Part shown: piece by piece, positions 1,595 to 13,132 of the stretch
Position numbering within the stretch: position 1 is the stretch's first letter
Layout of the letters: each line of letters begins with the position of its first letter
NCBI GenBank assembly: GCA_011524785.1
Contig: WTJQ01000408.1
Coordinates: 1-13,132, forward strand
Origin: Planctomycetota bacterium
Lineage (GTDB): Bacteria > Planctomycetota > UBA1135 > GCA-002686595
DNA length: 13,132 nt
Reading direction: 5' to 3'
Notes under the pieces: model-generated
Told to the model about the DNA's origin: nothing
Seen by the model: only the letters and a program-made list of their open reading frames with translations
Databases searched by the model: none
Translations under genes and position numbers: made by a program

Positions 1595-3571
1595 ATGTCG
1601 GATCGACCCTCCCTGCGCTTCCTCTCCGGCGACCGAGCCGGCGAGGTGGTCCCCCTCACGGGGCCCACGTTCACCATCGGGCGGCGCCCGGGCAACTCGC
1701 TCCAGGTCGCCGATCCCTCGGTCTCGGGCAAGCACGCCGAGCTGACCCTCGACGACCTCGGGCTCGTGGTGCAGGACCTGGGCAGCACCAACGGCACGCG
1801 CGTGGACGACGAGCGCATCGTCGAGGAGCGGGTCCAGGCCGGCGCGGTCCTGCGCTTCGGCAACGTGGAGCTGCGCTTCGAGGATGGCAGCGAGGCGCCT
1901 CTGGCGGGCGGCACGAGTGAGCCGGTCGGCCATGCGGCTGGCGCCTCTGGCGGCGAGCTCGTCCTGGAGGAGCCCGATGCGGCCGGGACGATCGATGCCG
2001 CCAAGCTCGAGGCCAGCCGTCGAGGCTCCAAGGTCCTCCCCTTGATCATCGTGCTGCTCGCTGCGGGGGCTGGCGCGGCCTGGTACCTGCTCCCCTCGCC
2101 CAGCGACTCCGGCGGCGGACAGGGCGCGACGGCACCTGCTCCTGTGAGTGCTCCCGCTGGTGAGCTCCTCGCAGCCAGCTACTCGTTCGAGGCCGATGCC
2201 GGTGCCTGGAGCGCACCGGACGACGCGGCTCCCGCCTTCGACACGTCGCGCATGGCGCGTCGGTCCGGACGGGTCGGCCTGCTCGCGGAGCTCGACCCGG
2301 CACTGGGCGTGCAGACCCACCTCTCCCCCGAGGTGCGCGTGAGCGAGGGGCGGTACCGCGCCTCCGTCTCCTTCCGCGCTCCGGACGCCGGGGCCGAGGG
2401 GCGCCTCGCCGTCGAGCTCGCCTCGTCCCGCGAGGACGGCCCGCGCGCGCTCTCCATTCGAACCCCCTGGGCTGGCCTCTCCGACGAGTGGCTGGACACG
2501 GAGCTGCCGCTCGAGGTGCCGCCCGGCTACGACCGTGCCCACGTCTCCCTCGAGGCTCGTGCCTCGGGCGCCGTCACCGAGGGCGATCCTGTCCTGGTCG
2601 AGGTTCACGCGGACGATGCCTCCCTCGTCGCCGACGGACGGAGCGCGCCCGTCCTCGAGCTGGGGACGCGTGCGCTCCTCGCGAGCGGCTCTCCGACCTC
2701 GCACGTGACCCTGGTCGACGTGCAGCGCCTGCTCCTGCCGAGCATCCGCAGGGCGGACGACGGCGCGCTCGAGGTGGCCTCGTCGGCTCGCGGCGCGCGG
2801 ATCACCGCGCCTGGTGCGGCTGCGGCCAGTCGCTGGCTCGTGCGCACCGCGCCGAGCCTCACCGAGGGCGGCCTGCGGAGTCTGGGCACGACCGGGTCCG
2901 CTTCGCACCCCGCCGCCTTCGAGCGGGGCGAGGTCGAGTCGGTCCTCCTCGGCGCGGGGCGCGGCCTCGTGACCCTGCGCTGCGACGCGGGGACCGCGCT
3001 GGCCGGCCGCCCCCTGGCGGGCGGCGGCTGGGAGCTCGAGCTGACGACCCCCGGCAGCGGGGGCTTCGTGGTCCAGGTCGACTTCCAGGAGGAGCTCTCC
3101 GAGGCCCTCCAGCTGGCGAGCGGAGCCCGCAAGGCGACCCGGGAGGGGCGCGTGGGCGAGGCGCTCCAGGCGTGGCAGTCGCTGCTCGACTCCGCGCCCT
3201 ACGACCGGGACGTGACCACCGAGGCAGAGGCGGCCGTGGCGAGCCTGGCCCTCGCCGCGCGCGCCGAGCTCGGCGAGCTGGAGGAGGAGATCGCGCGCGC
3301 CCGCTTCTTCCGCCTGACGGACGGCTACCGCGGCGCGATCGAGTCCGCCGACGCGTTGGCCGGCCGCTACGCCGGGACCGAGATCGCGGAGCAGGCCGAG
3401 GCGCTCATCGCGCCCCTGGAGGTCGAGCTCGATGGACTCGAGCAGGGGCGCGTCGACGACGAGCTCGCGCGGCTGGAGGCGATCCGCCTCGCGCTGCGCG
3501 CGCAGGGACAGGACCTCCTCGTCGAGGCGGTCCAGGGCCTGCTCAACACGAAGCAGGGTGGAGGTCGCTGA
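1595..3571 (+). CDS. FHA-domain membrane protein with carbohydrate-binding-like beta-sandwich and helical C-terminus
   Basis: A 658-aa protein. Residues about 6-97 form a forkhead-associated domain with GRRPGN (29-34), SVSGKHAEL (42-50) and DLGSTNGTRV (61-70), the residues that bind phospho-threonine peptides. An Ala/Gly-rich linker and one membrane span (about 147-165) follow, giving a cytoplasmic FHA and an external remainder. Residues about 192-346 look like a galactose-binding/CBM-type beta-sandwich: they open SYSFEADAGAW and close VEVHADDASLVA. A second beta-rich region (about 350-498) and a Glu/Ala-rich helical, TPR-like tail (about 500-650) complete it. It starts the cluster, and its stop lies 3 nt before pilM. 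FHA proteins often accompany secretion systems as phospho-dependent scaffolds, so a regulatory or assembly role is inferred. No Shine-Dalgarno sequence precedes the ATG; the start was chosen because the FHA fold begins at once. FHA is certain, the CBM-like call moderate, the function unknown. Confidence 0.85.
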   Translation: MSDRPSLRFLSGDRAGEVVPLTGPTFTIGRRPGNSLQVADPSVSGKHAELTLDDLGLVVQDLGSTNGTRVDDERIVEERVQAGAVLRFGNVELRFEDGSEAPLAGGTSEPVGHAAGASGGELVLEEPDAAGTIDAAKLEASRRGSKVLPLIIVLLAAGAGAAWYLLPSPSDSGGGQGATAPAPVSAPAGELLAASYSFEADAGAWSAPDDAAPAFDTSRMARRSGRVGLLAELDPALGVQTHLSPEVRVSEGRYRASVSFRAPDAGAEGRLAVELASSREDGPRALSIRTPWAGLSDEWLDTELPLEVPPGYDRAHVSLEARASGAVTEGDPVLVEVHADDASLVADGRSAPVLELGTRALLASGSPTSHVTLVDVQRLLLPSIRRADDGALEVASSARGARITAPGAAAASRWLVRTAPSLTEGGLRSLGTTGSASHPAAFERGEVESVLLGAGRGLVTLRCDAGTALAGRPLAGGGWELELTTPGSGGFVVQVDFQEELSEALQLASGARKATREGRVGEALQAWQSLLDSAPYDRDVTTEAEAAVASLALAARAELGELEEEIARARFFRLTDGYRGAIESADALAGRYAGTEIAEQAEALIAPLEVELDGLEQGRVDDELARLEAIRLALRAQGQDLLVEAVQGLLNTKQGGGR

Positions 3572-3574
3572 ACC

Positions 3575-5209
3575 ATGGCGCGCAACATGACCGCACTGGA
3601 CGTGGGGGCCGGCTCGGCCGTCGCCGTCCACGGACGCTTCGAGAAGGGCTCCTTCCGCATGGCGGGCTTCGCCGCCGCCGAGGGGGGGAGCTTCGCCGAC
3701 GCCTACGGGGCCCTCGAGCTGCCCTTCAAGCCGTCCGCGGCCCGCGTGGCCATCAGTGGCAAGGACCTCAACGTGCGCTACACGCGCGTCCCGCAGGTCC
3801 CGGACTGGCAGCTGCGCCGGCTGATGCGCTTCGAGGTGGCCGAGGTGGGGGACACCTCGGGCACGGAGGTCGCCAGCGACTTCAACCTGCTGCCGACGCC
3901 GCCCGAGGCGGACGGTGAGGACATCGTCCTGCTGGCCATGGCGCGCACGTCGCTCCTCGAGGAGCACGAGGCCGGCCTCGAGGAGCTCGGCGCCAGCCTG
4001 GAGTGCTTCACCCCGGCCGCGATCGGCCTCTACAACGCCTACCTCCGCCACGGCGTCGTGCAGGACGACACGGTCCTCCTCGCGAACGTGGGGCAGGACT
4101 GCGTGGACGTGGTGATCCTGCGGGGTCCCGACCTCGTCTTCGCGCGCAACCTCTCCGGCGGGGGCCGCCTGTTCCAGGAGGCCGTCGCGAGCCAGCTCGG
4201 CGTGCAGCCCGCCCAGGCCGCGCGCCTCGTCAGCGAGTTCGCCGATCTCCGGCCGGGAGCGTCCCACGCCACGCCCAACCACGAGCGGGTCTCGCGCGCC
4301 TCCTCGGCGGCGGCCGGCCAGCTGGTCTCCCTGCTCCAGTCGGCAGTGCTGTTCTGCAAGACGCAGGTCAAGCTGCCGTCGCTCAAGCTCGACCGCGTCC
4401 TCGTCACCGGCGGCACCGCGCGCATGGCGGGTCTCCCGGAGGTGCTGGGCGCGGGCCTCGGCGTGCCCGTGGAGCGCTTCGATCCCTGGGCCGTGGTCGA
4501 CACCTCGGCCCTCTCGCCCGAGGAGGTCGACAGCCTCGAGGCGCATCGCGACGAGGCCGTGGTCGCCCTCGGGCTCGCCACGATGGCGACCGACCCCGAG
4601 GCCTACGGCCTCGAGATCGTGCCGCCCGCGCTCGCCGCGCGGCGGGAGCTCTACGGCCGCAAGCTCTGGCTCATCGCGGCCGCGGTCGTGGCCGTGGCCT
4701 ACCTGGGCTTCTTCGCGGCGACCTCGTCCTCGCGCGCGACCGAGCTGCAGAAGCAGGAGCGTGTCGTGCGCTCGCAGGTGGCCGGCAAGCAGCGTGTCGA
4801 CCAGAAGGCGCGTGAGCTCCTCGAGGAGAACGCGCGGCTCGTGGAGGAGACCCTCGAGCTGCAGCGGCTCCTGGGCACGGGCGAGCAGCTGGCGCGCACG
4901 GTCGAGGCGCTCGGCGAACACCTGCCCTCCGACTTCTGGATCGAGCGCCTCGAGGGACGCTGGGGCGTCGACACGGAGCTCGGCGTGGGGGACAACGTCC
5001 CGCGGCCGCTCGTGCTCCTGAAGGGGGCGCTCCGCCAGGGTGCGCAGGCGCCCATCGTCCAGTACCAGACCCTGGTGGAGTCCTTGGAGGGTGACCTCCC
5101 CGGCGTCCGGACCAACTCGGCCTTCGACCGCGATCGCTTCTCGATCGACCTGACCACGTTCGGGGACCCGGTGGAGCCGGCTCCCGAGCCCGACGAGGAG
5201 GAGTCCTGA
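3575..5209 (+). CDS. pilM: PilM-PilN fusion (GspL-like) inner-membrane assembly platform protein
   Basis: A 544-aa protein. Residues 1-340 form a PilM-type actin-like ATPase fold: ALDVGAGSAVAVHGR (7-21) at the first phosphate loop, LLANVGQDCVDVVILRG (168-184) at the second, LSGGGRLFQEAV (193-204), and VTGGTARMAGLPEVL (277-291) at the adenosine end. Residues about 346-382 resemble a PilN start (LEIVPPALAARREL), then a membrane span (about 364-382), a coiled coil (about 388-432) and a small alpha/beta region (about 440-530) before an acidic tail. In most T4P systems PilM and PilN are separate. One chain with cytoplasmic actin fold, single span and external ferredoxin-like part matches GspL of type II secretion. 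The ATG lies 3 nt after the FHA stop, with GGAGG at 3560-3564 and 10-nt spacing. Its expected job is to couple the cytoplasmic ATPase to the external platform. The PilM half is firm; the PilN half rests on topology. Confidence 0.88.
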   Translation: MARNMTALDVGAGSAVAVHGRFEKGSFRMAGFAAAEGGSFADAYGALELPFKPSAARVAISGKDLNVRYTRVPQVPDWQLRRLMRFEVAEVGDTSGTEVASDFNLLPTPPEADGEDIVLLAMARTSLLEEHEAGLEELGASLECFTPAAIGLYNAYLRHGVVQDDTVLLANVGQDCVDVVILRGPDLVFARNLSGGGRLFQEAVASQLGVQPAQAARLVSEFADLRPGASHATPNHERVSRASSAAAGQLVSLLQSAVLFCKTQVKLPSLKLDRVLVTGGTARMAGLPEVLGAGLGVPVERFDPWAVVDTSALSPEEVDSLEAHRDEAVVALGLATMATDPEAYGLEIVPPALAARRELYGRKLWLIAAAVVAVAYLGFFAATSSSRATELQKQERVVRSQVAGKQRVDQKARELLEENARLVEETLELQRLLGTGEQLARTVEALGEHLPSDFWIERLEGRWGVDTELGVGDNVPRPLVLLKGALRQGAQAPIVQYQTLVESLEGDLPGVRTNSAFDRDRFSIDLTTFGDPVEPAPEPDEEES

Positions 5210-5211
5210 CC

Positions 5212-5982
5212 ATGGACCTCGAGAACTACTGGCAGGAGAACAAGAACTTCGTCCTCTCGGTCGCGGGGGGCGCGCTCGTGTTCCTGATCGGCTTCCTCGT
5301 GCTCGACTCGAGCTACGGGGCCGACCTGCGGGGCTCGGCCGCGCGCCTCAACCGCGAGCAGCAGAAGCTGCGGCAGTCCTACTACACGAACGCCGACCTC
5401 GGCCGCGTCGAGGAGGAGCACGCCGCGCTGACCGCGGCCCTCGACCAGCTGGCGGGCGCGGCGGCCTTCCAGCCGCGCGAGGGCTTCCAGCTCCGGGACG
5501 GGGCCGGCTCGCCGAGCAACCAGTACTTCGGGCGCGTCGACCGCGTGCAGCGCGAGCTGGAGCTGCTCGCGGGCCGCGCGCGCTGCGTGCTGCCCGACGG
5601 GCTCGGGCTCGAGCCGCTCAAGACCAACGACGTGGAGGTCATCGGACGCCAGCTCGAGGCCCTCGACCTGCTCGATCGCGCCCTGCGCCGCGCCATCGAG
5701 GCGGGGGTCGATCGGGTCTCGCGCGTCGAGGTCCAGCTCGACCCGAGCCTCGGCGGGCGCTCCGGCCTGGGGCGCGTCGAGCGGACCCGCGTTCAGCTCC
5801 GCATGGTCGCGGACCCCCCCGCGATCACCGCCTTCCTCCACGCGACCCAGCGCGGCGCGACGCCTCTGGTCGTCGACAGCTACGACGCCCGCGCGGCGAG
5901 CGGCCGTGAGGACGAGGTCGCGCTCGACATCACGCTGGTGGCCGTTCGCCTCCACGAGCTCGCCGAGGAGGGCGAGGAGTAG
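5212..5982 (+). CDS. pilO: PilO/GspM-like inner-membrane platform protein
   Basis: A 256-aa protein with a short cytoplasmic N-terminus, one membrane span (about 12-31), a coiled-coil helix (about 38-82), additional helices (about 105-165) and a C-terminal alpha/beta region (about 168-247) suited to the ferredoxin-like fold of PilO and GspM. The segment RTRVQLRMVADPPAITAFLH (191-210) looks like the strand-then-helix part of that fold. Sequence identity to PilO is too low to see by eye, so the call rests on topology and on its place 2 nt after the PilM-PilN gene, as in pilMNO and gspLM operons. It would heterodimerise with the PilN half in the periplasm. It is somewhat longer than the usual 160-210 aa, with the excess in the middle helices. 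GAGGAGGAG (5195-5203) precedes the ATG, overlapping the end of the upstream coding sequence. Confidence 0.7.
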   Translation: MDLENYWQENKNFVLSVAGGALVFLIGFLVLDSSYGADLRGSAARLNREQQKLRQSYYTNADLGRVEEEHAALTAALDQLAGAAAFQPREGFQLRDGAGSPSNQYFGRVDRVQRELELLAGRARCVLPDGLGLEPLKTNDVEVIGRQLEALDLLDRALRRAIEAGVDRVSRVEVQLDPSLGGRSGLGRVERTRVQLRMVADPPAITAFLHATQRGATPLVVDSYDARAASGREDEVALDITLVAVRLHELAEEGEE

Positions 5983-5984
5983 TC

Positions 5985-8771
5985 ATGGCCATCAAGCAGG
6001 AACAGGTCGTCTTCGCCGTCACCGCCGCCCTCCTGGGCTGGTGGGTGTCCGGCGACCTCTCCCAGGGCTCGACCCGCGGCCGGAGCCGCGGGGGCAGCCG
6101 CGCGCCCGAGCTCGAGGCCTTCCCCGCGCCGGACCCGGCGCTGGCCCTGGCCGCGCGCGACGACCTCGAGCGCCTCCCCCGGGACCTGTTCACGCCTCCG
6201 CGGGACACGGCTCCGCTCCCGCCCCTCGGCCTGGAGACGCCGCCCGAGCCTCCTCTGGACGCGCTCTGGCCGCCGCCGGCGCGGTCCCTCGGGATCGCCG
6301 CCTACTCCAAGCTGCTGCGGACCCCGGTGGTCGCCATGCCCGCGCCCGGCCTCTTCGAGACCGTCCTGACCGAGAGTGCGCCCGCACCCTTCGAGGACGT
6401 CACCGAGGAGGAGGACGAGGGCGAGGCCTCCCTCGCCATCGGCGGGGGTGACGGCGCGGACGCCGAGGAGCTGCTGAGCGCCGAGGAGCGTGCCGAGCGC
6501 ATCGCCTCGTGGAAGCGCCTCTACGACTGGCTCGAGCCGGCCAACGGAGGCGCCCTGCGCTTCGGCTCGATCGTCAACGGCGAGCGCTACACCCTGGACC
6601 AGCGTCCCGCCGAGCCGATCGAGTTCGTCGAGGTCAAGCCGGACACTGGCGAGCGCGTCCACCCGCCGAACTTCCCGCCCGTGCTCTTCGAGCCCGAGCG
6701 CCTCGCGAGCTGGTCGCTGGCCGACACCCCCTCGAACCGCGTCAGCCTGTTCCGCGCGCGGGTGGGGAATCAGCTGCGGCCCGGCGACCTCGTGGAGGCC
6801 ATGCAGATGGTCGACCTGTGCATCGCCGAGCGCCACAACGCTCCGGGGCTGCTCGACACGGCCGTCGAGCTCGCCCAGCTCGCGACGAGCGTGTTCGGGG
6901 AGGACGGTCAGGCCGATCCCTTCGCCGTGCTCAAGCTGGCCGAGGTCTACGAGGCCGGGTTCCGCGGCGAGGAGGCCTACGCCCTCTACCGCGGCCTGGT
7001 CGAGGGCGGCCAGCGGACGAACGCCGTGGCCTGGGCGCGGATGGCGCAGCTCGAGGCGCGCTACCGCCTCTTCGACCTCGCGGAGGAGCACTTCCTCCAG
7101 GCGATCGGCCTGAATGGGGCCAACCACTTCGCCCGGCTCGCCTACGGCCGCTTCCTGCTCGATCGGGGGCGCGGGGCCGAGGCGGTCGAGCACCTGCTCG
7201 AGGCCGAGCGCCGCGAGCCCCGCGACTCCGAGGGGCGCGCCCTGCGCGTCCTGACCCGCGGCAGCCTGGGGCATGCGCACCTCGCGGCCGGGGACCCGAC
7301 CAAGGCGGCCGGGGCCTTTGGGCGTGCGATCGCGGCCGACGACCAGGACCCGGATGCGGTCGCAGGTCTCCTGGCCGCCGCGCTGCTCACCGGCGACGAG
7401 GTCGCCCTCGGCGACGCGACGGCCGCCGCCGAGGCCCTGGCCGAGAGCGGGAGCGGCGCGACGTTCGACCTGCTCATCGCCACGGGCGTGGCCGCGCTGC
7501 GTGAGGGCAACCCGCTGAAGGCGCGGAGGCAGCTGACCCTCGCCGCCGAGAGCGATCCGTTCCGGGCCAGCGAGGCCTGGCGCGCGCTGTCCTGGCTGGC
7601 CGAGATCACGGGCCACCCCGAGGAGGCCAGCGGCTTCATCGAGCAGGCCTGGCAGGCCGATCCGACCGACGCCTGGACGCTCTACCAGCGCGCGCGGCTC
7701 CTCATGCGTCAGGACGACCTCGCGGGCGCGCACCAGATGCTGCGCGAGGCGCTCGACCAGGAGCTCGACTTCGCCGAGGCCCTCATCGCCATGGGCAAGG
7801 TCGCCCAGCTCGAGGGACGGGCGACGGACGCGGAGCTCTACTTCGAGCGTGCGCTCGGCCTTGACCCGGGCCGTCCCGCGCTCCACACGCGGCGCGGCTT
7901 CAACCTGCTGCGCCTCGCCGACGTCGTCGCCGCGGAGGCCTCGTTCACGGACGCCCTGGCCGCGGATCGCGGCGCCGCCGGTGCCCGGAGCGGTCTCGCC
8001 TGGTGCGCCTACGCCCAGGGGGACAGCCGCGAGGCCCTGTCCCGCTACGGCGAGCTGGCCGAGTTCCTGCGGGACCCGGCCGACCCCCAGCGCCAGCACG
8101 CGGAGGGGCAGGCGGCCCGCATCGTGGACCACGAGGCCAAGGAGGTCTGGTCGGACTCCTTCACGCGCCCCTCGGGGATGCTGCTCGGGAACGGCTGGAC
8201 CACGGACATCGGCTTCGGGCCGGAGGTGACCCTCGAGGAGGGGACCGTCCGGCTGGCGGGCCTGTTCGAGACCAAGGGCACCGTCCGCGTGTTCCGCGAG
8301 GAGCCCGTGGACGCGTTCCTCTCCTACGAGGCCGTCGTCACGGTCTCCGCCGAGACGCGGGCCCGGGTCGGGATCTTCCTGGCGCGCGAGCGCGTCTCGC
8401 GCACGTCGGAGAGCCAGACCCTGGCGGCCGTGCGCCTGACGCGCGCGTTCGGGAGCGCCGCGGACCTGGAGCCGATCCAGGCCGAGCTCGCCAAGCAGGG
8501 GGAGCTGGACAACGACACGACCGACCTCTTCACGACCACCTGGGAGCCGGGCGTCCCGCTGCGCATGGGCATCGTCCGCCGCGGCGAGGGCTCGGAGACG
8601 GTGGTGGACCTCTTCGTCGACGGCGAGGAGGTCCTGAGCGGGATCCCCATGTCGCGGCTCTTCGCCGGGACCAGCGGAATGCGCTTCGGCCTCATGGTCC
8701 AGGGCGACCAGGGGCGGACGTGCGAGGTCACCTTCGACGAGGTCCGCGTCGTTCGCCGCAAGCAGCCCTGA
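5985..8771 (+). CDS. Membrane-anchored TPR protein with C-terminal ConA/LamG-like domain, in the PilP/GspC position
   Basis: A 928-aa protein. A hydrophobic segment at about 8-22 is an uncleaved anchor or signal-like span. A Pro-rich stretch (about 45-125) and an acidic low-complexity stretch (137-170) follow. A short beta-rich piece (about 188-224; FGSIVNGERYTLDQRPAEPI) could be a reduced PilP/GspC homology domain, but this is tentative. From about 265 to 715 there are tetratricopeptide-type helical repeats; the clearest are about 560-660, with FERALGLDPGRPALHTRRGF (620-639). Residues about 720-925 form a beta-sandwich of LamG/ConA or DUF1080 type: VWSDSFTRP opens it, VVDLFVDGEEV (873-883) is the typical late strand pair, and FDEVRVVR closes it. 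The gene starts 2 nt after pilO. Its position suggests an envelope scaffold, perhaps the bridge to a secretin, with the TPR part for protein contacts. Domain calls are good; function is inferred. Confidence 0.82.
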   Translation: MAIKQEQVVFAVTAALLGWWVSGDLSQGSTRGRSRGGSRAPELEAFPAPDPALALAARDDLERLPRDLFTPPRDTAPLPPLGLETPPEPPLDALWPPPARSLGIAAYSKLLRTPVVAMPAPGLFETVLTESAPAPFEDVTEEEDEGEASLAIGGGDGADAEELLSAEERAERIASWKRLYDWLEPANGGALRFGSIVNGERYTLDQRPAEPIEFVEVKPDTGERVHPPNFPPVLFEPERLASWSLADTPSNRVSLFRARVGNQLRPGDLVEAMQMVDLCIAERHNAPGLLDTAVELAQLATSVFGEDGQADPFAVLKLAEVYEAGFRGEEAYALYRGLVEGGQRTNAVAWARMAQLEARYRLFDLAEEHFLQAIGLNGANHFARLAYGRFLLDRGRGAEAVEHLLEAERREPRDSEGRALRVLTRGSLGHAHLAAGDPTKAAGAFGRAIAADDQDPDAVAGLLAAALLTGDEVALGDATAAAEALAESGSGATFDLLIATGVAALREGNPLKARRQLTLAAESDPFRASEAWRALSWLAEITGHPEEASGFIEQAWQADPTDAWTLYQRARLLMRQDDLAGAHQMLREALDQELDFAEALIAMGKVAQLEGRATDAELYFERALGLDPGRPALHTRRGFNLLRLADVVAAEASFTDALAADRGAAGARSGLAWCAYAQGDSREALSRYGELAEFLRDPADPQRQHAEGQAARIVDHEAKEVWSDSFTRPSGMLLGNGWTTDIGFGPEVTLEEGTVRLAGLFETKGTVRVFREEPVDAFLSYEAVVTVSAETRARVGIFLARERVSRTSESQTLAAVRLTRAFGSAADLEPIQAELAKQGELDNDTTDLFTTTWEPGVPLRMGIVRRGEGSETVVDLFVDGEEVLSGIPMSRLFAGTSGMRFGLMVQGDQGRTCEVTFDEVRVVRRKQP

Positions 8772-8827
8772 GACGCGGGGCGCACGCTGCATCGCGGGGC
8801 GCCCGTCGCACGACTCCCTCCAGACCC
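8772..8827. promoter_or_regulatory. Intercistronic gap with a direct repeat, possible second promoter
   Basis: This is the only real gap in the cluster (56 bp). CGCGGGGCGC occurs twice, at 8774-8783 and 8793-8802, 19 bp apart start to start, roughly two helical turns. The downstream pseudopilin ATG has no Shine-Dalgarno sequence; CCCTCC lies just upstream, as it does before the FHA gene. These features would fit a separate promoter or operator for the pseudopilin genes, but no -10/-35 pair is recognisable. The same 10-mer also occurs inside coding sequence near 2953, so it may reflect GC-rich composition. Confidence 0.3.
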
Positions 8828-9475
8828 ATGAAGATCGCCTCCTCGACCGCCCGCGCCGGGTTCACCCTGATCGAGCTCCTGGCCGTGATGGTCATCCTCG
8901 GGATCCTGACCTTCTTCCTCATCCAGACGGGGGCCGGCGCCTCCGAGACGGTGCGGGTCGGAGCGACCCGAGGCTTCATCTCGACCCTCGAGGCGCAGAT
9001 CAAGGAGCACGAGCTCGACGCCGGGGACCACCCGCCCTCCAGCTTCCCCCGGACGCTCGACCCCAAGCCGACCACGGCCAACATGGGGGCGGAGATGCTG
9101 GTCATCGCGCTGTGGCCCAAGGACGGGAGCCGCGCGTCCGAGCCGGAGGAGGGGCGCCTCATCAACACGGACGGCGACGACACGCGCCAGTCGCACACGG
9201 TCTTCTCCTCGGGCTCCGCGTTCGAGCTCGCGGACGACTGGGGCAACCCGATCGCGTACTTCCACCGCCGCGACTACGACGAGCCCTGCATCTACGTCAC
9301 GTACGACGAGACCGGCGAGCCCGTCGAGGAGCGCGTGCAGGCGCTCGTGAACCCCGTGACCGGGGACCCGTACAACCGCGGGTCGTTCCAGCTCGTCTCG
9401 GCGGGCCCGGACGGCTTCTTCGGCACCGACGACGACATCGGCAACTTCACCGTCGTGGAGGACCCCGGCCCTTGA
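8828..9475 (+). CDS. gspG: GspG-like major pseudopilin
   Basis: A 215-aa prepilin. The start ATG gives a basic leader ending at Gly11, then F12-TLIE16, the prepilin peptidase site with N-methylated Phe at +1 and Glu at +5. The hydrophobic helix runs to about residue 33. The globular part has DDWGNPIAYFH (136-146) and ends with SAGPDGFFGTDDDIGNF (191-207), matching the C-terminal calcium-binding loop of GspG proteins. Length exceeds the usual 140-150 aa: residues about 66-135 form a longer middle region, a pattern I associate with planctomycete prepilin-like proteins. It would build the pseudopilus shaft extruded by the platform. An open frame extends upstream to 8003 but runs through the TPR gene; the prepilin signal fixes the start at 8828. 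It has no Shine-Dalgarno sequence and follows the 56-bp gap. Its stop overlaps the TTG start of the next gene. Confidence 0.92.
   Translation: MKIASSTARAGFTLIELLAVMVILGILTFFLIQTGAGASETVRVGATRGFISTLEAQIKEHELDAGDHPPSSFPRTLDPKPTTANMGAEMLVIALWPKDGSRASEPEEGRLINTDGDDTRQSHTVFSSGSAFELADDWGNPIAYFHRRDYDEPCIYVTYDETGEPVEERVQALVNPVTGDPYNRGSFQLVSAGPDGFFGTDDDIGNFTVVEDPGP
9457..9461 (+). promoter_or_regulatory. Ribosome binding site deciding a TTG start
   Basis: GGAGG lies 10 nt before the TTG at 9472, inside the end of the gspG-like gene. The same motif and spacing (3560-3564) precede the PilM-PilN start. This supports TTG as the true start of the GspH-like gene, since no ATG or GTG is available in frame before its membrane helix. 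Confidence 0.7.
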
Positions 9476-10512
9476 GCCCGCGCCGCCCTGCTGCGGGCGG
9501 CGGGATCCAGGACCCGCGCGCCGGCCTCACCCTGCTCGAGCTGCTCATCGTGATGAGCCTGCTCGCGCTGGTGCTCGGGGTCGGTGCGGGCTCTCTCGCG
9601 AACCTCGATCCGGGCCGGCGGACGGCGCTCTCGACGGTCACGAGCACCCTGCGCCTCGCGCGCAACGAGGCGGTGGCCCGCCGCGCGCCGGCGCGCGTCA
9701 CGATCGACCGGGCCACCGGACGCCTGCAGGCCGAGGGGCTCCGCGTGGTCGGGACCTGGCGCTTCGAGGACGAGGGCGTCATCGAGGGCTTCGGGCCCCC
9801 GGCCGAGCTGCTGGGGGGCGACGTGCCGCGCACGGACGCCGGGCACATCGGCAAGGCGCTGGACTTCGCGGCGGGTCCCCCGGCGGGGCGGCTGGCCGTG
9901 GCGCTGGAGGAGGACCCCGCCTGCGACCCGCGGGACGGCTTCGCGCTGGAGCTCGCGCTGCGCGTGCAGCAGGCGAGCGGGACGCGCATCGCGGACCTCG
10001 GTGGCTCGGCGGGCCTCGACCTGCGCTCCGACGGCTCCCTCGTGGGCTGGTTCATCCAGGAGGTCGTCGGCGCCACGGGGCGCGGGGCCAAGGGCGGACG
10101 CATCCGCCTCGAGTCGGCCGCCGGCGTGGTCCCGGTGGGCCGCTGGTGCCGCCTGCGCCTCGAGTACGACCGTCGCGTGCTGCGAGCCCTCGTCGACGAC
10201 GTCGAGGTGGGGATCGTGGCGGCCGAGGGACGCGTCTGGGAGCCGGAGGGCTCCCTGCTCGTGGGGGGAGGGACCGGCGGGCTGATGGCCCAGGTCGACG
10301 ACCTCGTGCTCTCCGTGGTCAGCGCCGGGGACGCCGCGCTCCTGCCGGCAGGGGTCACCCTCAAGAAGGACAGCCCGACCCAGGTCCACTTCACACCCAC
10401 CGGCTCGCTCGATCCGCGGCAGCACCCCGCGCCGCTGGAGCTCGTGCTCGAGTACGACGACGGGGACCAGGACACGATCCGCGTCGGCCTCTACGGGACG
10501 GTGGAGGGATGA
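9472..10512 (+). CDS. gspH: GspH-like minor pseudopilin with an inserted LamG/ConA-like domain
   Basis: A 346-aa protein when started at the TTG that overlaps the gspG stop as TTGA. This start yields a leader ending at Gly18, then L19-TLLE23, a prepilin peptidase site with Glu at +5, and a hydrophobic helix to about 43. Residues 50-90 (STLRLARNEAVARRAPARVT) match the GspH/FimT region where the helix enters the first strands. Instead of continuing as GspH, residues about 94-282 form a LamG-like sandwich: TWRFEDEG, HIGKALDFAAG (125-135), VGRWCRLRLEYD (222-233) and LVDDVEVG (240-247). The C-terminus then resumes a GspH pattern: TQVHFTPTGSLDP (303-315) and DTIRVGLYGTVE. Normal GspH is about 150-190 aa. 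In type II secretion GspH links the tip complex to the shaft. The next gene overlaps by ATGA. An upstream open stretch from 9112 in this frame is antisense-like noise inside gspG and was not used. Confidence 0.87.
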   Translation: MSPRRPAAGGGIQDPRAGLTLLELLIVMSLLALVLGVGAGSLANLDPGRRTALSTVTSTLRLARNEAVARRAPARVTIDRATGRLQAEGLRVVGTWRFEDEGVIEGFGPPAELLGGDVPRTDAGHIGKALDFAAGPPAGRLAVALEEDPACDPRDGFALELALRVQQASGTRIADLGGSAGLDLRSDGSLVGWFIQEVVGATGRGAKGGRIRLESAAGVVPVGRWCRLRLEYDRRVLRALVDDVEVGIVAAEGRVWEPEGSLLVGGGTGGLMAQVDDLVLSVVSAGDAALLPAGVTLKKDSPTQVHFTPTGSLDPRQHPAPLELVLEYDDGDQDTIRVGLYGTVEG

Positions 10513-13132
10513 GCACGCGCCATCTCCAGCGGAGCCGCGGAGGCTTCGTGCTGATCTCGGTGCTGGTGGTGCTGCTCGCGCTCCTCGTGCTGACGGCGCC
10601 GTTCCTCGCGACCGCGCGCAACGCCTCCTCCGCTGGCGCCCAGGCCGCGGACCGAGCGGAGGCCCGCCTGGGCCTCGCCTCGGCGTCCCGGCACGCGCGG
10701 GCCCACCTCTCCGGGTCCCACCCGGCCTTCGACGAGACGCCCTGGGCCGACGGCCCCGACGAGCTCAGCGTGCCGCGCACGCTCCCGGAGGAGTTCCTCG
10801 ATCCGCACGACCCCCGCGGGGCCATGTGGGACCTCGACGTTTGGGACGAGTCCGGGCGCATCGACCTCGACAGCGCGAGCCCGTTCGTCATCGGGAACCT
10901 GACTGGCCTCCGGGGACGCCTCTCGCGCCCGGTCGAGCCGGCGGCTCGGGACGTGGTGCCCGTGAACAACCTGTCCGCCTTCCCGGACTCGGGGGTCCTG
11001 ATCCTCCGCGGGGAGTGGATCCGCTGGTCGGGCAAGTCGGGCGGTCCGGACGGCGGCCTGACGGGGCTGACCCGCGGGGTGGGTGCCTTCGAGGACGACG
11101 ACGGCAAGTGGTCGACCGATGGTCCGCTCCCGCCGATCCAGCACGGGGTCGGGGATCACGCCATCGACCAGCGTGCCTATGCCCTCCCCCTCTGGCGGAT
11201 CGCGACCGCGGGAACGGGGCTCCGCGGGCTCGACGCCTTCGAGCAGCTGGCGGAGCTCGACGACTTCGCTCTGGAGGGCAGCATCGACCCGGCCCTGCGC
11301 GCGCGCATGCGCGAGCTCGGGACGGTGCACGGGGACATCGCGGCCGGCCGGACCTGGCAGCGCCCGACCCGCCTGCTCAGCGGGGTCACGCCCTTCGAGA
11401 CGTACACGATCCGCGTCGCCGAGGACCGCTGGTTCGCCGAGGGGACGACCGTCTGGATCTCCGACGGGCAGGTGGACGAGTTCCGCATCGTCATGCGCCG
11501 CGCGCGCGGCGGGACGCTCGTCCTGGACCAGGCGCTCGAGCACCGCTTCGACGCTTGGCGCGCCACCGTGCGCCCGCTCGCGCGGCGCCCGGTCAACCTG
11601 AACACCGCGCCCGCGGCCGTGCTGGAGGTCCTCTTCGAGGGCCTGCAGGTCGCCGGCCGGAACGAGCGCATCACGGCCTCGGAGGCTCGCGACCTGGCGA
11701 CCGTCGTCCAGGAGTCGCGACCCATCGACGGCTGGGAGGACTTCCTGCAGCGCGTGGTGCTGCCCTCGGCCGGCCTCGAGACCCTGCCCGACGACGCTCC
11801 GCGGCGTCCCCGGCTGCTCGATGGCGACACGGGCTTCCTCGATCCCCTCGACGCCACCGCGCTCTACCTGAACGGCCTCAACGCCAACGACAGTCGCCTG
11901 GCCTTCTCGACCATGCCGTTCGCGTTCACCTCGCGCGAGGTCTACGGCATGCACCTGCGCTCGGCGGTGGCCGCTCGCAGCGGTGTCGAGCGGGCGCGTG
12001 CGACGCGGGACCGCTGGGAGCTGATCTCACCGCCCGGGCCGCTGTTCGAGCTGTTGAGCCGGCAGGTGGACATCGAGGAGGCCGTGCGCCTCGATCGGGA
12101 GTCCGCCTGGTGGGCCACGGGCCCCGAGCCGGTCGTGCGCTTCGACGGCGTGGTGGTCCCGCCCTCGCGCTTCGCGGCGCACATGGGGGCCGTGGGGGGC
12201 AGCGCCTTCGTGCCCGGGCTCAGTGAGCCGGTCTACGACCGTGCGGGTGAGGAGGTCCAGCCCCAGCGCGTCTTCGCCTCGCGCGAGGAGGACGGCTTCG
12301 CCCAGCTGTGGGCCGCTCGCGTGCCCGACGCCCAGGCCTGGAACGGGCACGCCCTGCACTTCGACCAGGAGACCTCGAGCCTCGAGGGCCGCTGGGTCGC
12401 CGAGACCGGCAGCATCGTCCGCGACCCGGCCAGCCAGCTGGTGGGTTGGACGACGGAGGGCGAGCAGAACCTGCTGCGCGCCCTGTCCTTCCAGGGCTGG
12501 TTCCAGCTGCGACAGGTGGGGGAGTCCACCCTGCTCGACGTCGCCGGCACGAGCCTGGAGAGTGACCGGGTCCAGATCCTGCTCGAGGGCCCCGACCTCG
12601 TGGTGCGCGTGCTCGACGGCTTCGGCGACCACCCCGACTCGCCCGAGCGTGAGGCGGCCGAGCTCCGCTACGCGATCGCGCCCGGGGACGGTCCTGGTCT
12701 GCCGGTCGGGGTCTGGCACCACCTCGCGCTCGACGTGAGCGGCACCCGGCCAGACCAGCTCGGGCTGCTTGTGAACGGGCTCGCCGTCGGCGTCCGGCGC
12801 ATGGGCCAGTCGATCACGACCGGGCCCGTGGGCGACGCGGACGGCTTCATCCCGCTGGAGCGGACCGAGGGCTTCCCCTCGCAGGGCGTGGCGCGCATCG
12901 GCAACGAGCTGGTCGAGTACGTGCTCTCGGCGGGCGGGCTCGACTGCACCTTCAACGAGACCGGGCCCCTCGCGGGCTTCGGGGGGCGCTTCGCGCGCGA
13001 GATGCACGACCGCGAGACGACCGACCCCGCGGACGTCACCATCCCCGCGGCCCTCGAGCGCGGCACGCTCACGACCTCGTACCCCTCCGGCACGACGGTC
13101 CAGAACTACGGCTACACGATCCCCGCCAGCTC
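10509..13132 (+). CDS. gspK: Giant GspK-like minor pseudopilin with LamG-like domain and repeated beta modules, 3' truncated
   Basis: The frame stays open to the window edge: 874 codons, against about 320 aa for ordinary GspK. The leader ends at Gly12, then F13-VLIS17; Ser replaces Glu at +5, as expected for GspK. After the helix (about 13-35) come WDLDVWDESGRIDLDSASP (107-125) and PVNLNTAPAAVLEVLFEGL (361-379), hallmarks of the T2SSK core, followed by a helical stretch ending in GWEDFLQRVV (408-417). Between the two hallmarks, and again near the end, are small beta modules (about 158-192, 292-356 and 787-846; FPDSGVLILRGEWIRWSG versus FPSQGVARIGNELVEYVL). Residues about 595-765 look LamG-like: WNGHALHFDQ (611-620), GVWHHLALDVSG (734-745) and LGLLVNGLAVG (751-761). 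GspK caps the pseudopilus, so the added domains would sit at the tip. Start by ATGA overlap with gspH. The C-terminus is not visible. Confidence 0.86.
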   Translation, partial: MSTRHLQRSRGGFVLISVLVVLLALLVLTAPFLATARNASSAGAQAADRAEARLGLASASRHARAHLSGSHPAFDETPWADGPDELSVPRTLPEEFLDPHDPRGAMWDLDVWDESGRIDLDSASPFVIGNLTGLRGRLSRPVEPAARDVVPVNNLSAFPDSGVLILRGEWIRWSGKSGGPDGGLTGLTRGVGAFEDDDGKWSTDGPLPPIQHGVGDHAIDQRAYALPLWRIATAGTGLRGLDAFEQLAELDDFALEGSIDPALRARMRELGTVHGDIAAGRTWQRPTRLLSGVTPFETYTIRVAEDRWFAEGTTVWISDGQVDEFRIVMRRARGGTLVLDQALEHRFDAWRATVRPLARRPVNLNTAPAAVLEVLFEGLQVAGRNERITASEARDLATVVQESRPIDGWEDFLQRVVLPSAGLETLPDDAPRRPRLLDGDTGFLDPLDATALYLNGLNANDSRLAFSTMPFAFTSREVYGMHLRSAVAARSGVERARATRDRWELISPPGPLFELLSRQVDIEEAVRLDRESAWWATGPEPVVRFDGVVVPPSRFAAHMGAVGGSAFVPGLSEPVYDRAGEEVQPQRVFASREEDGFAQLWAARVPDAQAWNGHALHFDQETSSLEGRWVAETGSIVRDPASQLVGWTTEGEQNLLRALSFQGWFQLRQVGESTLLDVAGTSLESDRVQILLEGPDLVVRVLDGFGDHPDSPEREAAELRYAIAPGDGPGLPVGVWHHLALDVSGTRPDQLGLLVNGLAVGVRRMGQSITTGPVGDADGFIPLERTEGFPSQGVARIGNELVEYVLSAGGLDCTFNETGPLAGFGGRFAREMHDRETTDPADVTIPAALERGTLTTSYPSGTTVQNYGYTIPAS

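Follow-up and report, generated by a model that had tools for sequence, protein, structure and literature searches.

A Planctomycetota operon of type II secretion-type platform and pseudopilin genes with predicted beta-sandwich domains in four of its proteins

The window, that is the whole stretch of 13,132 nucleotides that was analysed, is one entire contig of a MAG of 3.43 Mb (652 contigs, 79% complete) and contains seven closely spaced genes, FHA, PilM-PilN, PilO, TPR, GspG, GspH and GspK, preceded by a cut RadC gene and by RsmE on the opposite strand. The arrangement is operon-like since GspG and GspH, as well as GspH and GspK, share 4-base overlaps. The following features were identified:

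1595..3571, + strand, FHA protein, 658 aa
about 1616-1885, + strand, cytoplasmic FHA domain of the FHA protein
about 2033-2089, + strand, TM helix of the FHA protein
2108..2638, + strand, predicted CBM4-like beta-sandwich region of the FHA protein, residues 172-348
about 2639-3094, + strand, region of the FHA protein between the CBM4-like sandwich and the C-terminal region
3575..5209, + strand, PilM-PilN fusion, GspL-like, 544 aa, TM residues 364-382
5212..5982, + strand, PilO/GspM-like protein, 256 aa, TM residues 13-31
5985..8771, + strand, TPR protein with a C-terminal ConA-like sandwich, 928 aa
8118..8768, + strand, ConA-like sandwich of the TPR protein, residues 712-928, AF2 pLDDT 91.1
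8828..9475, + strand, GspG-type pseudopilin, 215 aa, N_methyl E 2.4e-6
9472..10512, + strand, GspH-type modular pseudopilin, 346 aa when read from the TTG at 9472, start uncertain
9748..10320, + strand, LamG domain of GspH, about residues 93-283
10509..13132, + strand, GspK-type pseudopilin, truncated by the contig end, 874 aa here
10950..11105, + strand, repeated beta module of GspK, copy 1, residues 148-199, E 1.4e-8
12294..12800, + strand, LamG domain of GspK, residues 596-764
12840..13124, + strand, repeated beta module of GspK, copy 2, residues 778-872, E 2.1e-27

Platform and pseudopilins could be recognised by sequence, as the initial annotation had proposed. The PilM-PilN protein with its TM helix has a GspL-like architecture, yet its best family name is PilM, and with E 1e-29 and 103.9 bits against a cut-off of 650 bits it falls outside Amuc_1101_fam. 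The PilO/GspM-like assignment is based on a weak XpsM match together with position, conservation and the TM helix. For the three pseudopilins the NCBIfam equivalog matches (5.5e-10 in GspG) are all below cut-offs. GspH shows N_methyl at its N-terminus (E 1.6e-5) and a Pfam GspH match just above cut-off, and by its combination of prepilin motif and extra LamG domain it is a modular pilin. The LamG may be inserted within the GspH pilin head, as the C-terminal strands look pilin-like; the LamG-removed sequence was matched over its N-terminal part only.

GspK was identified by a hydrophobic N-terminus in the hydropathy scan, a GspK family match and a LamG profile, and Pfam N_methyl gave no match in the window GspK. 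The 26 homologues that are complete within their loci are 1603-1799 aa long. The repeated beta module, with the motif FPxxGxxxIGxExxxY..., is usually present in three copies per homologue (35 homologues) and in 0 of 199 controls; the E values of its copies listed above derive from a model built from these same proteins. Copy 2 is predicted to fold into a small beta-barrel-like structure resembling, at modest Z, small phage-protein barrels.

When searching named genomes with PilM-PilN 16 loci were found, 13 of them from Planctomycetota bacterium, the closest (L032) with 90% identity. In relatives the genes 3' of GspK encode proteins of ~365, ~165 and ~505 aa, and in G007, the sole relative annotated downstream, an unmatched protein is followed by an I-like N_methyl protein, a TPR protein, a PPIC-type isomerase and ScpB. 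The I-like protein represents a further pseudopilin downstream of GspK in that relative; among the same downstream genes the J-like one of 361 aa gave no family match. Elsewhere in these surroundings the closest relative has, upstream of the operon, a nitric-oxide synthase oxygenase-domain gene (E 9e-126; L032:1523-2773), and at L088:5235-7397, 3' of ScpB and downstream of the operon, a 720 aa protein is encoded whose collagen-like repeats match Pfam weakly (E 4e-4).

Sandwich domains, a type of fold that frequently serves in sugar binding, were found in the four components for which they had been claimed. GspH belongs to the LamG/ConA-like superfamily by profile, GspK by profile and a modest fold match, and the TPR protein by fold, the latter according to the AF2 model, Foldseek and VIA for residues 712-928. 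A PDB sequence profile of the TPR C-terminus was unconvincing, the best hit being an Ig-like protein (E 0.0012) over individually weak repeats; the hydropathy scan showed no TM in this protein, which we infer to be periplasmic. In the FHA protein the predicted sandwich is called by sequence profile only, residues 172-348 matching PDB profiles of 8zdo (E 1e-8) and 4d0q (E 4.8e-4), with no Pfam support among 41 members, and for residues 345-500 solved structures gave no significant relative. In one relative (L039:2076-3137) the operon is preceded, at a distance of a few kb, by a gene for a Ser/Thr protein kinase (Pkinase in Pfam, E 1e-43), a possible partner for the FHA domain; in several relatives genes upstream of the operon are similar to it in length, by which alone they were matched.

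Comparison of the sandwich profiles with hhalign revealed that the LamG domains of GspH and GspK are related (Prob 88, E 2.9e-6), while TPR against GspH is marginal (Prob 71), TPR against GspK poor (Prob 17) and the FHA profile matched neither of the two it was compared with, TPR and GspH. At least two kinds of sandwich therefore seem to be present. Alignments were made of 41 of 48 FHA, 43 of 46 TPR, 38 of 40 GspH, 35 of 41 GspK (9 of the 35 truncated at a locus or contig end) and 42 of 48 PilM-PilN sequences. The mean pairwise identity of the LamG domain was 0.365 in GspK (core 0.392) and 0.301 in GspH (pilin part 0.385), that of the ConA domain in the TPR protein 0.292 (TPR 0.323) and that of the FHA sandwich 0.269 (FHA domain 0.436, C-terminal region 0.290). 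The sandwiches evolve somewhat faster than the best-conserved parts and at about the same rate as the remainder, and on these values they resemble an integral component more than a rapidly changing adhesin; the identities do not separate glycan binding from protein binding.

The most conserved sandwich positions hold many W, F, G and D, and the GspK piece has several invariant or near-invariant polar residues (R92, D108, H143). In the ConA-like fold the GH16 catalytic motif is of the ExDx(x)E type. A GH16-type catalytic domain was rejected, as the motif occurs in 1 of 43 TPR, 1 of 38 GspH, 0 of 35 GspK and 0 of 41 FHA pieces, the window's own having none.

The window-type PilM-PilN (E<=1e-60) was found in 57 of 61 genomes sampled from the organism's own up to the order level, its own included. 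Gene calls, made with a simple in-house caller, were obtained for 55 of 56 loci (none for L076). Removal of three duplicates (L064, L081, L086) left 52, of which 33 have the complete seven-gene series in sequence, 19 are partial and 0 are out of order. The partial loci, among which four short or badly called ones (L043, L046, L079, L080) are counted that were excluded from the alignments, reflect contig or locus ends, genes missed by the caller or divergence beyond BLAST. At class level the GspH profile (E<=1e-8) matched 116 of 121 genomes and 52/52 of good quality, all matched genomes among those listed belonging to the same order. In the phylum sample it matched 152 of 199 (good-quality subset 86/113), many weaker matches spanning the pilin part alone or the LamG part alone, and PilM-PilN at E<=1e-30 matched 136 of 199 (70/113), some of these being other PilM proteins. 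Some near-complete genomes, e.g. G127, G149 and G180 (each 99-100% complete), gave a match to neither.

Among the best 60 GspH matches outside the order, 46 are at most 12 kb from a PilM-PilN match, 11 are further away or on another contig and three have no listed PilM-PilN. In 18 loci outside the order, several of them truncated by contig ends, PilM-PilN was found in 16 and the GspH LamG in 18 (by design, the loci having been chosen for their GspH match). The GspK LamG is present in 15 of them, and the TPR and FHA sandwiches were recognised in 14 and nine, respectively. Since the sandwich-bearing genes recur in these loci, the operon architecture, as judged from such matches, is older than the order. 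The extra regions are accordingly conserved in homologues, neither absent nor random. Four independent fusions, as the initial annotation had it, do not fit this picture: recent ones are ruled out by the presence of the extra regions throughout the order and, in part, in outgroups, and the GspH and GspK LamG domains are related to each other. The proposal of one shared ligand class is weakened likewise, as the sandwiches differ in kinship, GspH and GspK being related but FHA matching neither TPR nor GspH. An estimate of chance clustering was not relied on, as it depends strongly on the number of LamG genes: taking 2900 genes in total and counting all seven-gene windows, it is about 0.005 if 12 of them are LamG genes and 0.24 if 40 are, and 80 would leave no evidence at all. 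The RadC and RsmE flanks suggest that the operon serves a core envelope function, as does the fact that even genomes of 1.8-2.5 Mb have the GspH gene.

Neither the operon nor the scanned neighbouring genes yielded a secretin, an ATPase or a retraction ATPase, and the operon yielded no major T4 pilin; GspD, E and F in particular are absent from the window, from ten upstream genes of three relatives and from the downstream genes of one. T2SSE ATPases and secretins are present in 37/37 genomes searched, including the organism's own, where a second locus (L102) holds GspD-E-F and small pseudopilins. In its counterpart in the relative G007 (L103) the best NCBIfam matches, most of them below cut-offs, are to GspD, E, F, G, H and J. 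The profiles of PilM-PilN, PilO, GspK and the sandwiches matched none of eight GspDEF-type loci at E<=1e-3, and the GspH profile matched these loci essentially in the pilin part; a split type II secretion system is thus the simplest reading, in which the operon and the GspDEF locus are, by their predicted genes, complementary. The GspDEF locus doubles as a control, its pseudopilins, from the same or related genomes, being without extra domains. Since it has its own G, H and J, two separate machines are also possible.

Among the 199 phylum genomes 99 have both PilM-PilN and GspD, 19 PilM-PilN only, 16 GspD only and 65 neither, with cut-offs picked after viewing the lists (about 4e-42 for PilM-PilN, 1e-70 for GspD; edge cases G305 at 3.4e-42 and G222 at 2.2e-39). 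A strong GspD match is consequently missing in 19 of 118 PilM-PilN genomes and PilM-PilN in 16 of 115 GspD genomes; with GspD at 1e-60 the numbers are 107, 11, 26 and 55, and the co-occurrence, not corrected for relatedness, is inflated by shared ancestry. The organism's genome has three GspF-type genes, one in the GspDEF locus and two on contigs beside PilB-type ATPases, as seen directly for C260 and judged from a relative (L114) for C183. In that relative a PilT-family gene adjoins PilB and PilC, and in the organism's own genome (L118) a T2SSE-family gene of similar size, not named PilT, does the same. Besides the GspDEF locus, a short contig of the organism's genome encodes another secretin (L111:1909-3510), with GspD as its best match (E 2e-47).

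With a probability of about 0.5 we propose that the operon encodes the platform and pseudopilus of a T2SS-type machine exporting folded proteins, with the sandwiches acting within the secretion cycle. In such a type II secretion-type machine, a member of the type 4 filament class, the products would form the pseudopilus and the platform in the inner membrane, and the separate GspD-E-F-pseudopilin locus of the same genome would supply secretin, ATPase and GspF. The known GspI-J-K tips suggest by analogy that GspH and the giant GspK, as modular pilins, would place their LamG modules at the tip of the pseudopilus. The CBM4-like domain of the FHA protein and the ConA-like domain of the TPR protein would surround the platform on its periplasmic side. 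The sandwiches would most likely dock exoproteins, other subunits or envelope glycan during the cycle, and the FHA domain would sense Thr phosphorylation and so control the machine. The sandwich arrangement is probably part of the machine's working because it is old and widely conserved. Ligand binding by the sandwiches is a fair guess by analogy, as modular pilins with PF13385 domains are known and lectin activity is proven for one ConA-like module of a pilin.

Alternatively, and possible though doubtful, the products may form a polysaccharide-binding filament on the cell surface. Its LamG tip and giant GspK would reach outside, a PilT-type ATPase would provide retraction and the TPR and FHA sandwiches would hold the glycan once it has been drawn into the periplasm. 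The proven lectin, the ConA-like module of Streptococcus sanguinis PilC as described in the available text of PMC9934059, is in line with this, as are the PilT-family gene and its similar-sized counterpart mentioned above and the PilM-containing MUL2 locus of Akkermansiaceae, which available parts of PMC13174399 tie to glycan attachment and uptake and whose Amuc_1101_fam the window PilM-PilN matches, but at a score of 104 against 650 bits. Against it, the operon offers neither retraction ATPase, secretin nor major pilin, the sandwiches are not clearly faster-evolving than most remaining regions and a glycan site on them is putative.

LamG folds frequently bind proteins. This counts for a structural role, here considered rather unlikely, in which the sandwiches bind subunits together or to peptidoglycan and extend the periplasmic reach, with no extracellular ligand; the retention of all four together across large distances and the conserved W, F, G and D, which may be core positions, agree with it, whereas R92, D108 and H143 of the GspK piece could form a site. 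Improbable as it is, a general envelope machine for large glycans may also be envisaged for much of Planctomycetota, in which a T2SS-type piston with sandwiches on its tip (GspH, GspK) and on its periplasmic parts (FHA, TPR) would move the polymer from surface to periplasm under an FHA Thr-phosphorylation switch. That the sandwiches are mis-called beta-rich regions is very hard to believe: the window sequences alone gave no Pfam sandwich match above cut-off and the GspK Foldseek matches are weak, but homologue scans, PDB profiles and models are concordant, and TPR and GspH already speak against it.

The GspL-like PilM-PilN, the GspM-like protein, GspG/H/K and the GspDEF locus elsewhere in the genome resemble a type II secretion system (Gsp), from which the present one differs in its two loci, the LamG on GspH, the sandwich-bearing FHA and TPR subunits and a GspK that is 1600-1800 aa long and includes LamG as well as repeated beta modules. 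Pilins with grafted domains, including PF13385 and ConA-like lectin modules, are described for S. sanguinis PilB and PilC in available parts of PMC8179133 and PMC9934059, where GspK is already termed modular, the former mentioning both Planctomycetes and GspK; here, in contrast, two pseudopilins and two non-pilin platform-associated proteins are concerned, in one operon conserved widely in the phylum. MUL2 (amuc_1099-1102; PMC13174399) likewise has a PilM-family protein and, in the four-gene list seen there, no ATPase, but PilM-PilN is far below the Amuc_1101 cut-off and the gene set, with GspG/H/K here, is another. In the same phylum pili-like fibres of Planctopirus limnophila and Gemmata obscuriglobus bind the polysaccharide dextran (PMC5394234); the text available of that paper names no fibre genes, and the two are not among the species shown to have the operon. 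The open-access literature searched gave no description of a LamG pseudopilin or Laminin_G_3 modular pilin, which does not prove their absence in print; pseudopilin, concanavalin and type II secretion are mentioned together in the S. sanguinis pilin papers, among others, as far as their text was available.

A GspK of such length poses a new problem for the protein-secretion field. The intake of large polysaccharides by some of these bacteria, whose mechanism is called unknown in the part of PMC11131199 available, is a process for which the operon supplies candidate genes in some Planctomycetota. The findings suggest that modular pilins extend beyond single adhesins to two minor pseudopilins and two platform-associated proteins that, within one phylum, have long held lectin-type folds.
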